From the NCBI GenBank assembly GCA_937128235.1, contig CAKZMG010000005.1, positions 1 to 35,008 of the forward strand: a DNA stretch of 35,008 nt. Reading direction: 5' to 3'. The position numbers and the translations under genes are program-made. Origin of the DNA: an uncultured Verrucomicrobiales bacterium. GTDB lineage: Bacteria > Verrucomicrobiota > Verrucomicrobiia > Verrucomicrobiales > Akkermansiaceae. The number at the start of each line of letters is the position of its first letter. Position 1 is the first letter of the stretch. This document shows positions 7,215 to 16,684 of this stretch, one piece after another. Below the pieces are notes generated by a model. That model worked only from the letters and a program-made list of their open reading frames with translations. It was not told where the DNA came from and made no database searches.

Positions 7215-8087
7215 ATGAAAAATAAATTAATTATCTCCCTAATTACAAGTCTTGTTATTACAAGCACTTCCTCAGCCCAATGCCTCGGACCAGGAGAAGC
7301 TACATCTATAAGTTCCAATAGAGCATTTAATGGTACAGGCACTCTAAGAGACACTTCTGCTAATAGTCCTTACAATGGAGGTGCTTCCTTCCAAGGAACT
7401 TACAGATACACAGGAGCAAGTGTTAGAACTAACACTTGGAACACTACCAATGATGCTATAAACATCAATCAAACTTGGGATACTACAGTTAACTTTAGCC
7501 CCACTGGTGGTTTAGCTGAATTCACAACCCATGTCGGAAACGCTAACAGAACATCTTGGTCTTGGAGGGATAACACATCAGGCAATTTCTTCACTATTGC
7601 GCTAAGGCAAGCAAACGCAGCCAACCCCACACTTCAATTTAGTTGGAATGATGGAACCACTACAAACACCGTCGATGTTGCCTCGTTCACTAATGGACAA
7701 GCAGAGTCTCTCACCTTTGAATTTGGGCCTTCTGCAAGTAATACCAACGGTTTCGACATTACATGGAATTCTACTGGCAACTTGTTAAATAGCACTTACA
7801 CATCTACATTCACGCATGTTGACGCAACGCTTGCAAACGCTTCTGACATTTCCCACTCATACTCAAATCTATCACAAGCAGCTTGGTTTGAAGTAATAGA
7901 TCCTGTGACGGGGGCTAGAACAACTGCAATACGTAACGCTTCTCTCGGCTTACAAGGCTTTGTTGATCCAGATAATCCTAATGGTCCTACAATAAAAAAC
8001 TATGGTCCTTGCCCTACACCAGAGCCTTCATCTAGTATGCTAATCATGCTTGGAGCCTTCTTTGGAGTATTTCGAAGAAGACGCTAG
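7215..8087 (+). CDS. PEP-CTERM sorting-domain protein (exosortase substrate)
   Basis: The 290-aa secreted protein has a signal peptide (residues 1-21, ending TSSAQ) and a long Ser/Thr/Asn-rich, probably beta-rich body. The C-terminus is a PEP-CTERM signal: PEPSSS, a hydrophobic segment (MLIMLGAFFGVF) and RRRR at the end. Such proteins are cleaved by an exosortase and delivered to the surface or an extracellular matrix. The exosortase gene is not in this window. Codon use is more A/T-rich than in ruvB next door. The gene is flanked by an A/T-rich divergent spacer and a strong terminator, so it is probably a single-gene unit. The body shows no domain I recognise. Confidence 0.9.
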   Translation: MKNKLIISLITSLVITSTSSAQCLGPGEATSISSNRAFNGTGTLRDTSANSPYNGGASFQGTYRYTGASVRTNTWNTTNDAININQTWDTTVNFSPTGGLAEFTTHVGNANRTSWSWRDNTSGNFFTIALRQANAANPTLQFSWNDGTTTNTVDVASFTNGQAESLTFEFGPSASNTNGFDITWNSTGNLLNSTYTSTFTHVDATLANASDISHSYSNLSQAAWFEVIDPVTGARTTAIRNASLGLQGFVDPDNPNGPTIKNYGPCPTPEPSSSMLIMLGAFFGVFRRRR

Positions 8088-10301: not shown

Positions 10302-10450
10302 AGGGATTTCTTTATAGTGGATAAAATTTAAAAGCGATAAAATACCGATTCTAAAAAGAACTTTCATCACCAACTTTAACCTCTTATATACGCACTTACA
10401 TGAAATTTCTATTTGCCAAGAAGTGGTATAGGCAGCAGAGTATTGGCGAT

Positions 10451-11023
10451 ATGAAATATAAATTATTCACTCTGCTCGCTGCCTCATTTACGATGGTGGT
10501 AAGTGGACAAGACACAAAAGAGAAAGCACCTGAGGCTGACGCTAAGAAAGAAGCTACTGCTGACGCTAAGACAGAGGATGCTAAAGAAGTAGCTGCTTCG
10601 GCCGTTGCTAAAAGCATCGCACCGGTGATTCAAAAGTTTGATGGTGAGAAGTATGCCGCGACCAAGCTTGCTGGTAATCCAGACTACTACATCATGTATT
10701 TTACTGCAAGTTGGTGACCACCTTGCCGTAGATCAGTTCCACAGTTAGTGGAAAAGTACAACGACAAAATTTCTAAACTAGGTAATCTCGAACTCGTTCA
10801 GATCAGTGTGGACAGAGATGGAGCTAAGGCTACAGCATGGGCAAAGAAAGAGTCTTTCCCATGGCCTACCATCTTGATGGCAGATATTGAGAAGACGATG
10901 GTGAAGGACATCAAAACCAACGCTGTGCCTACCTACGTGCTCATTGACAAAGATGGAAAGGAAATAGCGCGAGCTCATGATTCAGCTACAGTAATGACTA
11001 AATTTGAGGAAATCACCAAATAA
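10451..11023 (+). CDS. Thioredoxin/TlpA-like probable selenoprotein with Sec at the active site (UGA 10715-10717)
   Basis: Read through the single TGA at 10715-10717, this is a 190-residue secreted thioredoxin-fold protein. ATG 10451 gives a signal peptide ([19 protein letters not shown]); an in-frame ATG at 10400 would add 17 residues before it. A Lys/Ala/Glu-rich linker follows, then the redox site TASW-Sec89-Pro-Pro-Cys92-Arg. In TlpA/ResA relatives this motif is WCPPC. The fold continues normally after the [30 protein letters not shown], the cis-proline loop [14 protein letters not shown], and a stop at 11021-11023. A SECIS-like hairpin follows the UGA and a strong terminator closes the unit. 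The inferred role is periplasmic thiol-disulfide or peroxide chemistry. The alternative is a nonsense mutation (TGC or TGT to TGA), but a random stop exactly on the nucleophilic cysteine, with both halves intact, is unlikely. No selA, selB, selC or selD is visible in the window. Confidence 0.8.
10718..10753 (+). promoter_or_regulatory. Candidate bacterial SECIS element
   Basis: Downstream of the UGA there is a perfect 6-bp stem TTCCAC (10737-10742) with GTGGAA (10748-10753) around the loop AGTTA. The loop starts 25 nt after the UGA. This fits the general bacterial SECIS pattern, in which the loop lies roughly 16-37 nt downstream, is small, and has a G in one of its first two positions. The element lies inside the coding sequence, as bacterial SECIS elements do. 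A folding or bSECISearch run was not possible here. Confidence 0.7.
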
Positions 11024-11073: not shown

Positions 11074-11109
11074 AATAGAAGCGGCAAATTTTGTCGCTTC
11101 TATTTTTTT
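11074..11109 (+). terminator. Rho-independent terminator after the selenoprotein gene
   Basis: A 10-bp stem AATAGAAGCG (11074-11083) pairs with CGCTTCTATT (11095-11104) and is followed by a T run to 11109. It shows that the part of the gene after the UGA belongs to a maintained transcription unit. Confidence 0.9.
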
Positions 11110-15298: not shown

Positions 15299-16684
15299 TT
15301 ACTTCACACCTTCTTGCTTCATGAACATACGCTGTTCACGGTAAGTGATCACTGCATTACACTCGCGCATGAAGTCCGCTCCGAAGAGGCCCACATAGTC
15401 GAGTCCTTGGTCAAAGCGATCTAAGTCGGTAGCCATAACACGACGCTTCTTGAAGACTGCCGTTCCGAGAGTAACACTCTCAACTGTGCAACCAGCAGCA
15501 GGTGCTTCACCACCCACTCCGTAAACTTTCTGATCCATTGGACCAACTTCTACATTGTTTTTCTTAGCAGCATCTAGGTGTAATAATGAGCTATCAGCAC
15601 CTGTATCGATCATCCAAGTTACCTTGTTCTCGTTGAGTGTTCCATCAACGAAAATGTGGTTTCCTCTACGCTCATACTTGAAGCTCTGGTATGCTCTGAG
15701 CTCTAACAGCTCCTGGATGGTCAGACTACGGCAATGCTGCAGGAATAAGGCTCCTTCTGGCGTCCAGCTCTTCGCATACTCTGCATCTTCTGGAGATAGC
15801 TGAGTAATAGGCAGCTGAAACTTTTTACCACTAGGTGATTTCAGAGTGAGAACTGTAGCTGTCCTCTTAACGATAGTTCCACGGTAGGTTTTTCCTGATT
15901 TAGATTTAAAAATTCTAAATGTAAGTGCATCTGCATCTGCCTGCTCGTCACCTGTGGTCTTCACCTTAGCACTATCAGACTTATCTGGACGTAAGAATAA
16001 TTTTCTCTCTTGGTAGGAAATAACAGCATCTAACTCAGAAAGCATCTCAGCTCCGAATAATCCATCATCCTTGCGCTTTGCTCCCTTAGGCATATCCTTC
16101 ATGAGGTCAGTTGCCATGATCTGTCTGTCTTTAAATACTGACTCACCGATCTGTAGAGTATCCACTTGTGCGAGCGCAGCTGGAACCTCTCCAGAAACTC
16201 CATACACCTTATGCTCAAATGGTCCCAGCTCACAGCCTGTGCGCGTAGCTGATCCTGTGTGGAACAATGACGTGCCCGCTCCTGTATCTACGACAAATCT
16301 AGCTGGCTTGCCATTGATCTTAGCTTCTACCATGATAGAATTTCCATCTAACTTGACAGGGATAGCTTCATAACCCCGAAGTGTGAGTAGTGCTCCTACT
16401 GAGAGGCTTCTGCACTTAGAGAGAAAGTAAGCTTTCGCCTTATTCCAGCCTTTTACATACTCTTGGTCTTCAGCACTCAGAGCTGAAATATCCACCCTGC
16501 TACGTCTTCCATTCTGCATTAGGAATACAGCTTTCGTATCAGTCTTGTCCACTAACACCGCCTTGATTACTTTTCCCGCAGCGTTCTTGAAATCACGGTA
16601 TTCAATTACTTCTTTGGCACTTAGCGAAGAGATGCTCAGCCCCATTCCGAGCATTAACATCGTCATATATTTGATTGGTTTCAT
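15299..16684 (-). CDS. Secreted tandem SHD1-retropepsin protein (two aspartyl protease lobes)
   Basis: The 461-aa protein has a signal peptide (residues 1-23) and an internal duplication. Each half has an SLA1-homology-like (SHD1) domain (about 26-80 and 255-308; VDISALSAEDQEYVKGW against LPITQLSPEDAEYAKSW). Each is followed by a retropepsin-type lobe with its own catalytic triad motif: VVDTGAGTSLFH (DTGA 133-136) and MIDTGADSSLLH (DTGA 360-363). Both lobes carry YGV-GGE/SGE-type flaps and end in GLFGA, as in PerP/gag-like bacterial proteases. Single lobes normally dimerise, so this chain could fold as a pepsin-like intramolecular pair. It lies 24 bp downstream of another SHD1 protein, probably in one operon. 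The substrate is unknown. Confidence 0.87.
   Translation of the reverse strand: MKPIKYMTMLMLGMGLSISSLSAKEVIEYRDFKNAAGKVIKAVLVDKTDTKAVFLMQNGRRSRVDISALSAEDQEYVKGWNKAKAYFLSKCRSLSVGALLTLRGYEAIPVKLDGNSIMVEAKINGKPARFVVDTGAGTSLFHTGSATRTGCELGPFEHKVYGVSGEVPAALAQVDTLQIGESVFKDRQIMATDLMKDMPKGAKRKDDGLFGAEMLSELDAVISYQERKLFLRPDKSDSAKVKTTGDEQADADALTFRIFKSKSGKTYRGTIVKRTATVLTLKSPSGKKFQLPITQLSPEDAEYAKSWTPEGALFLQHCRSLTIQELLELRAYQSFKYERRGNHIFVDGTLNENKVTWMIDTGADSSLLHLDAAKKNNVEVGPMDQKVYGVGGEAPAAGCTVESVTLGTAVFKKRRVMATDLDRFDQGLDYVGLFGADFMRECNAVITYREQRMFMKQEGVK

Follow-up and report, generated by a model that had tools for sequence, protein, structure and literature searches.

A probable selenocysteine at the active site of a thioredoxin-like protein from one family of Verrucomicrobiota

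Gene layout and reading frame

Within a 35,008-nt stretch of DNA from an uncultured Verrucomicrobiales bacterium (hereafter the window), a gene for a thioredoxin-like protein carries a TGA triplet at the first position of its redox motif. This raises the question of whether the triplet terminates a damaged gene or specifies selenocysteine (Sec), as a sequence-only reading of the window had proposed. The gene runs from an ATG at 10451 to a natural stop, TAA, at 11021–11023, and the triplet at 10715–10717 is its sole in-frame TGA, in the context TASW-U-PPC. These points agree with the sequence-only reading, as does the breakage of the gene by ordinary ORF calling: in a plain ORF list it appears as two frames, 10400–10717 and 10748–11023. 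The start was picked by comparison with orthologues, which share it; a second ATG in the same frame occurs at 10400. The terminator claimed after the gene was recovered as a terminator-like hairpin; the region contains two such sites, where shuffled sequence would give 1.1. No match to a sigma-70-type promoter was found upstream of the gene. The features are as follows.

10451..11023, + strand: predicted selenoprotein gene for a thioredoxin-like protein (190 residues, Sec as residue 89), supported by Pfam matches across the TGA and by orthologue starts

10715..10717, + strand: in-frame TGA, the putative Sec codon, at the same codon in 94/94 relatives' loci examined

10724..10726, + strand: codon for the resolving Cys of the UxxC motif, Cys in 95/96 genes and Ala in 1

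10737..10753, + strand: SECIS-like hairpin, with stem 10737–10742/10748–10753, loop AGUUA at 10743–10747 and a conserved G at 10744

11074..11104, + strand: terminator-like hairpin of 14 pairs with a T-run

Selenocysteine machinery in the genome

The genome that contains the window (G000; 94.6% complete, 347 contigs) encodes selA (504.3 bits), selB (267.8 bits, cut-off 242.25), selD (378 bits) and tRNA-Sec, the selC product (62.3 bits, anticodon TCA). All four components for which a check had been advised are thus present. They sit on contigs other than the window's; within the window, Rfam gave no match and ARAGORN no tRNA.

The selD gene itself (L018, G000:C15) has its own in-frame TGA near the start (L018 1531–1533, GG-U-ASK). 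A predicted 8-bp stem follows, closing on a GUU loop; its sequence, A-GUU-U, contains the AGUU that also occurs in the hairpin loop after the thioredoxin-like gene's TGA. Judged by these features, selD is a second predicted selenoprotein gene of this genome.

Conservation of the TGA codon among relatives

Of 195 genomes searched from the same taxonomic family, 174 contained a match. Among the matches listed, 94 contained one TGA; all were read from DNA (30 loci and 64 regions; 96 distinct genes), and in every one the TGA occupied the first position of the redox motif. Homologues in genomes lacking selA had Cys there. Unrelated stops scattered among close relatives, which the sequence-only reading had named as grounds for abandoning selenocysteine, are therefore not what the relatives show. 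Across the 96 genes, the residue at +3 from Sec was Cys in all but one, which has Ala; the residue before Sec was mostly Trp (81 genes), otherwise Thr (11), Phe (3) or Leu (1).

The orthologue L021 (55% identity) comes from a MAG labelled Rubritalea and is probably the same gene as L031. Two matches to the window protein were found in G000, and side-by-side copies occur elsewhere: G037 has three TGA-containing matches in a span of ~1.8 kb and G043 has two in ~1.5 kb. The replacement of Trp before Sec by Thr, Phe or Leu was observed in paralogues L151, L153–L155, L157–L162, L119 and L122. The single gene with Ala for the resolving Cys (L136, G060:C76; SSSW-U-PSA) keeps the Sec codon and comes from a genome in which no selA was matched.

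Phylogenetic analysis clustered the Sec genes: the Sec label required two changes on the tree, and one change in 63% of bootstrap trees, a result that fits a single origin of Sec as well as more than one. When the search was widened to 387 genomes from the phylum, 111 gave matches at E <= 1e-15. Every match listed outside the family was stop-free, and the TGA-containing ones among those listed came from G000, G011, G014, G024 and G141. As seen here, the Sec-type branch appears to be specific to one family of Verrucomicrobiota and often duplicated.

In the relatives, purifying selection acts on the half of the gene downstream of the TGA, in keeping with the earlier claim that it is intact. In 90 pairs of relatives filtered for identity of 0.6–0.97 and dS < 1.5, none of which included the window gene, median dN/dS past the TGA was 0.13 (maximum 0.37), and the value ahead of it was 0.24. 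For the window gene and its three nearest relatives, dS is near or past saturation (1.96 against L029, 1.29 against L030, undefined against L031), with dN of 0.26, 0.29 and 0.26, respectively.

The hairpin following the UGA

A perfect 6-bp hairpin, UUCCAC-AGUUA-GUGGAA, begins 19 nt after the UGA and has a G at loop position 2, exactly as had been described; a hairpin just past the UGA whose small apical loop has G as its first or second base is the pattern sought in a SECIS element. The fit to the bacterial SECIS pattern had been part of the sequence-only reading; comparison among relatives supported a role as a SECIS, whereas folding of the window's own hairpin did not. The 48-nt fold containing it was no better than shuffles (z = -0.53). 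By our own SECIS-like rule, such hairpins follow 220 of the 1514 TGA triplets on both strands of the window (14.5%), or 64 of 1514 when a 5-nt loop is required. The window hairpin by itself proves nothing; the case rests on conservation and covariation in relatives.

This comparison covered 32 genes (28 distinct rows) and, separately, 88 distinct 48-mers, and all its shuffle tests are inflated by kinship among the genes: in the smaller set, the six stem pairs were formed in 89.9% of cells versus 82.6% in shuffles, two-sided changes affected four of the six pairs (reached by 2/500 shuffles), and the covariation score was 0.213 versus 0.092 (0/500 shuffles as high); in the larger set, the paired share was 90.2% versus a shuffle mean of 80.4% and maximum of 83.1% (1000 shuffles). 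Slid versions of the stem reached at most 57.1% pairing and a covariation score of at most 0.129. About 10% of stem cells are unpaired in the relatives, mainly at pair 25-37, where 10 of the 28 distinct rows have a C.A mismatch. Among the 88 48-mers, the innermost pair was C-G in 75 and G-C in 13, and the next-to-innermost pair was A-U in 69, G-C in 4, G-U in 2 and unpaired in 13. The flip of the innermost pair from C-G to G-C was seen in most of the paralogues within L151–L162 that lack Trp before Sec.

The codon beneath the loop shows a similar constraint: TTG in 44 genes, TTA in 40, TTT in 10, GTT in 2 and CTN in none of the 96, so that Leu is encoded by TTA or TTG in 84. The Cys-type homologues have Leu at this codon in 13 of 25 rows, 10 of these 13 as CTN. 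Stem pairing and covariation, together with a loop codon that is TTG or TTA and never CTN, indicate that the RNA is conserved and not the protein alone. A covariance model of this region (R1), built on 48 nt that include coding sequence, scored the window gene at 67.2 bits in its own genome, with the next hit at 14.4 bits and nothing else meaningful; it therefore provides no list of other selenoproteins.

Co-occurrence of the TGA form with selA

For tRNA-Sec the Rfam threshold lacks specificity in this setting: 77 of 195 family genomes pass it, but so do 5 of 14 control genomes. Co-occurrence was therefore evaluated with selA. A selA match was found in 70 of the 195 family genomes (69 above cut-off). 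Considering the matches listed, selA was present in 58 of 64 genomes with a TGA-containing match and absent from 48 of 49 with only stop-free ones (Fisher p 5e-24, a value that ignores descent); the count omits G149, whose best listed match has a TAG, and genomes without matches listed. The sole stop-free genome with selA, G072, is represented by a contig-edge fragment that starts past the Sec position.

The six TGA genomes without a selA match are G060 (96% complete), G087 (83%), G105 (70%), G109 (83%), G114 (86%) and G150 (72%). tRNA-Sec scored 56.5 bits in G060, 54.4 in G150 and 47.2 in G105, and none was above cut-off among the matches listed for G087, G109 and G114. Conversely, 11 of the 70 selA genomes had no row among the matches listed, and 6 of these 11 had no match at all; the protein is therefore not universal among Sec users.

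Interpretation and rival explanations

Together, the conserved UGA, the Sec genes, the covarying hairpin, the co-occurrence with selA and purifying selection past the UGA argue strongly for selenocysteine. With a probability that we place at about 0.95, the gene product is a probably exported oxidoreductase with a thioredoxin fold, in which the attacking residue would be Sec (W-U-P-P-C), inserted via SelB and the hairpin and acting through a selenenylsulfide. During translation, SelB carrying Sec-tRNA-Sec would bind the hairpin 19 nt past the UGA, and Sec would be put in at this codon instead of termination. The protein would then reduce disulfides or related oxidized groups, a selenenylsulfide forming between Sec and the Cys at +3. 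Sec insertion and export are inferred, as are an electron donor and a substrate.

Conversion of a Cys codon to TGA by a nonsense mutation or a sequencing error, which would make the gene a truncated thioredoxin-like pseudogene, would be a small step, since TGA is one base from TGC and TGT, and homologues in selA-less genomes do carry stops. The three such stops examined, however, fall elsewhere (TGA at the Trp before Cys in G141, TAG at Trp in G149, TAG at Tyr in G078), whereas the identical TGA recurs in 96 distinct genes from 94 loci with a median dN/dS of 0.13 downstream. As far as the comparison reaches, this explanation is already refuted, and we regard it as extremely unlikely. The three single-stop homologues concerned (L096 in G141, L097 in G149 and L098 in G078), from genomes with no selA match, are probably decaying genes.

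Two further explanations accept the codon as genuine. Were the UGA read as Trp, Cys or another ordinary residue owing to suppression or an altered code, with no selenium involved, the frame kept across a single UGA would look alike; yet the genome holds the full Sec gene set, a covarying hairpin follows the UGA, the TGA form co-occurs with selA, the codon occupies the position of a redox Cys and the window's other genes end at normal stops, so that this account deserves next to no credence. The UGA might also act in part as a selenium-sensing stop, giving at low selenium a short product with a role of its own. UGA with a SECIS is recoded at 30–40% in vivo according to PMC4513850, and some truncated product is therefore expected; this product would end ahead of the resolving Cys and lack most of the fold, which makes a separate role very unlikely. 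We accordingly retain the reading of the UGA as an active-site Sec codon.

Relationship to known protein families

Pfam assigned the window protein to Thioredoxin_8 (PF13905; 56.6 bits, cut-off 27, residues 78–170) and Redoxin (PF08534; 52.4 bits, cut-off 26.6, residues 64–174), both spanning the redox motif. By profile, the closest solved proteins were tryparedoxins (3s9f, 6.1e-17), followed by thioredoxin-family proteins including StoA and ResA. The similarity to tryparedoxin or nucleoredoxin-like proteins (PF13905) is a likeness of sequence only: tryparedoxins are Cys proteins of trypanosomatids, whereas the window protein is bacterial and predicted to contain Sec. The WxPPC motif of tryparedoxin recurs in the window protein, and a tryparedoxin is defined by being reduced by trypanothione and passing electrons to tryparedoxin peroxidases.

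No NCBIfam model exceeded its cut-off for the window protein or two relatives; a separate scan of 19 members gave cut-offs for the window protein alone. ResA, StoA, TlpA and DsbE are likewise thioredoxin-like and bacterial, are exported as the window protein probably is, and gave weak to moderate profile matches. Membership in any of them was rejected, as the scores lay far below the NCBIfam cut-offs (StoA 40/210, ResA 39.5/170, TlpA 33.5/230, DsbE 32.8/123.15 bits). TsoB (NF045694) and WAxxUGC_long (NF041054) also have a thioredoxin-like region with Sec, but the window protein scored 19.4 of 805 bits against the former and one relative 20 of 300 bits against the latter.

Thioredoxin-like selenoproteins with a UxxC motif are a known kind, as PMC13188914, PMC1088965, PMC12013277, PMC9312934, PMC2398784 and PMC4807772 indicate. 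Among them are 'Trx-like 1' (COG0526) of marine metagenomes, with 321 sequences (PMC2398784), and a 'thiol-disulfide isomerase-like protein' (cd02966) tabulated in PMC13188914. These Sargasso/GOS families resemble the window branch in their thioredoxin-like fold, Sec at the first position and SECIS just past the UGA, the comparison being by description only. A Redoxin family selenoprotein (PF08534; table of PMC13188914) has UxxC and PF08534 in common with the window protein, but the best Pfam match of the latter is Thioredoxin_8; this likeness, too, is by description. The stem 'Verrucomicrob' is absent from PMC12013277 and PMC9312934 and from the main texts of PMC13188914 and PMC2398784. A literature search of partial coverage, combining selenoprotein or selenocysteine with Verrucomicrobia, Rubritalea, Akkermansiaceae, Akkermansia or tryparedoxin, returned nothing that describes this family by title or opening of the abstract, which does not imply that it is unpublished. 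The window protein seems to belong to the known UxxC thioredoxin-like selenoproteins, within a lineage-specific, duplicated branch in Verrucomicrobiota.

Because the ORF list splits the gene and no NCBIfam model exceeded its cut-off for three members, a redox family with active-site selenium is likely to go unnoticed in annotation. The relatives offer a natural data set on permitted variation in bacterial SECIS elements, with the Cys forms of selA-less genera as controls.

Location, function and genomic neighbors

The N-terminus of the window protein resembles an export signal, and the protein is probably exported; the Rubritalea orthologue (L021) has VSCG, which we take to be lipobox-like. 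Our best guess at function is a Sec-activated disulfide reductase outside the cytoplasm. The odds seem about even that a duplicated, probably extracytoplasmic thioredoxin-like branch has kept Sec across this Verrucomicrobiota lineage, each copy with the same sequence-constrained AGUU-loop hairpin. If so, extracytoplasmic disulfide reduction would be a principal purpose for which these bacteria need selenium, and Cys forms found in selA-less sister genera would record the loss of selenium use.

The window neighbors (RuvB, a VF530-type DNA-binding protein, a zinc-binding dehydrogenase and a PhoD-like phosphatase) are unrelated, and no redox partner is visible among them. Since the ORFs beside L021 are, by eye, unlike those of the window, we propose no operon partner. 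Elsewhere in the window, positions 7215–8087 encode a 290-residue protein with a terminal PEP-CTERM sorting motif (PF07589, 24 bits, cut-off 20.7), and positions 15299–16684 encode a 461-residue protein with two stretches of a retropepsin-like aspartyl protease domain (PF13650).
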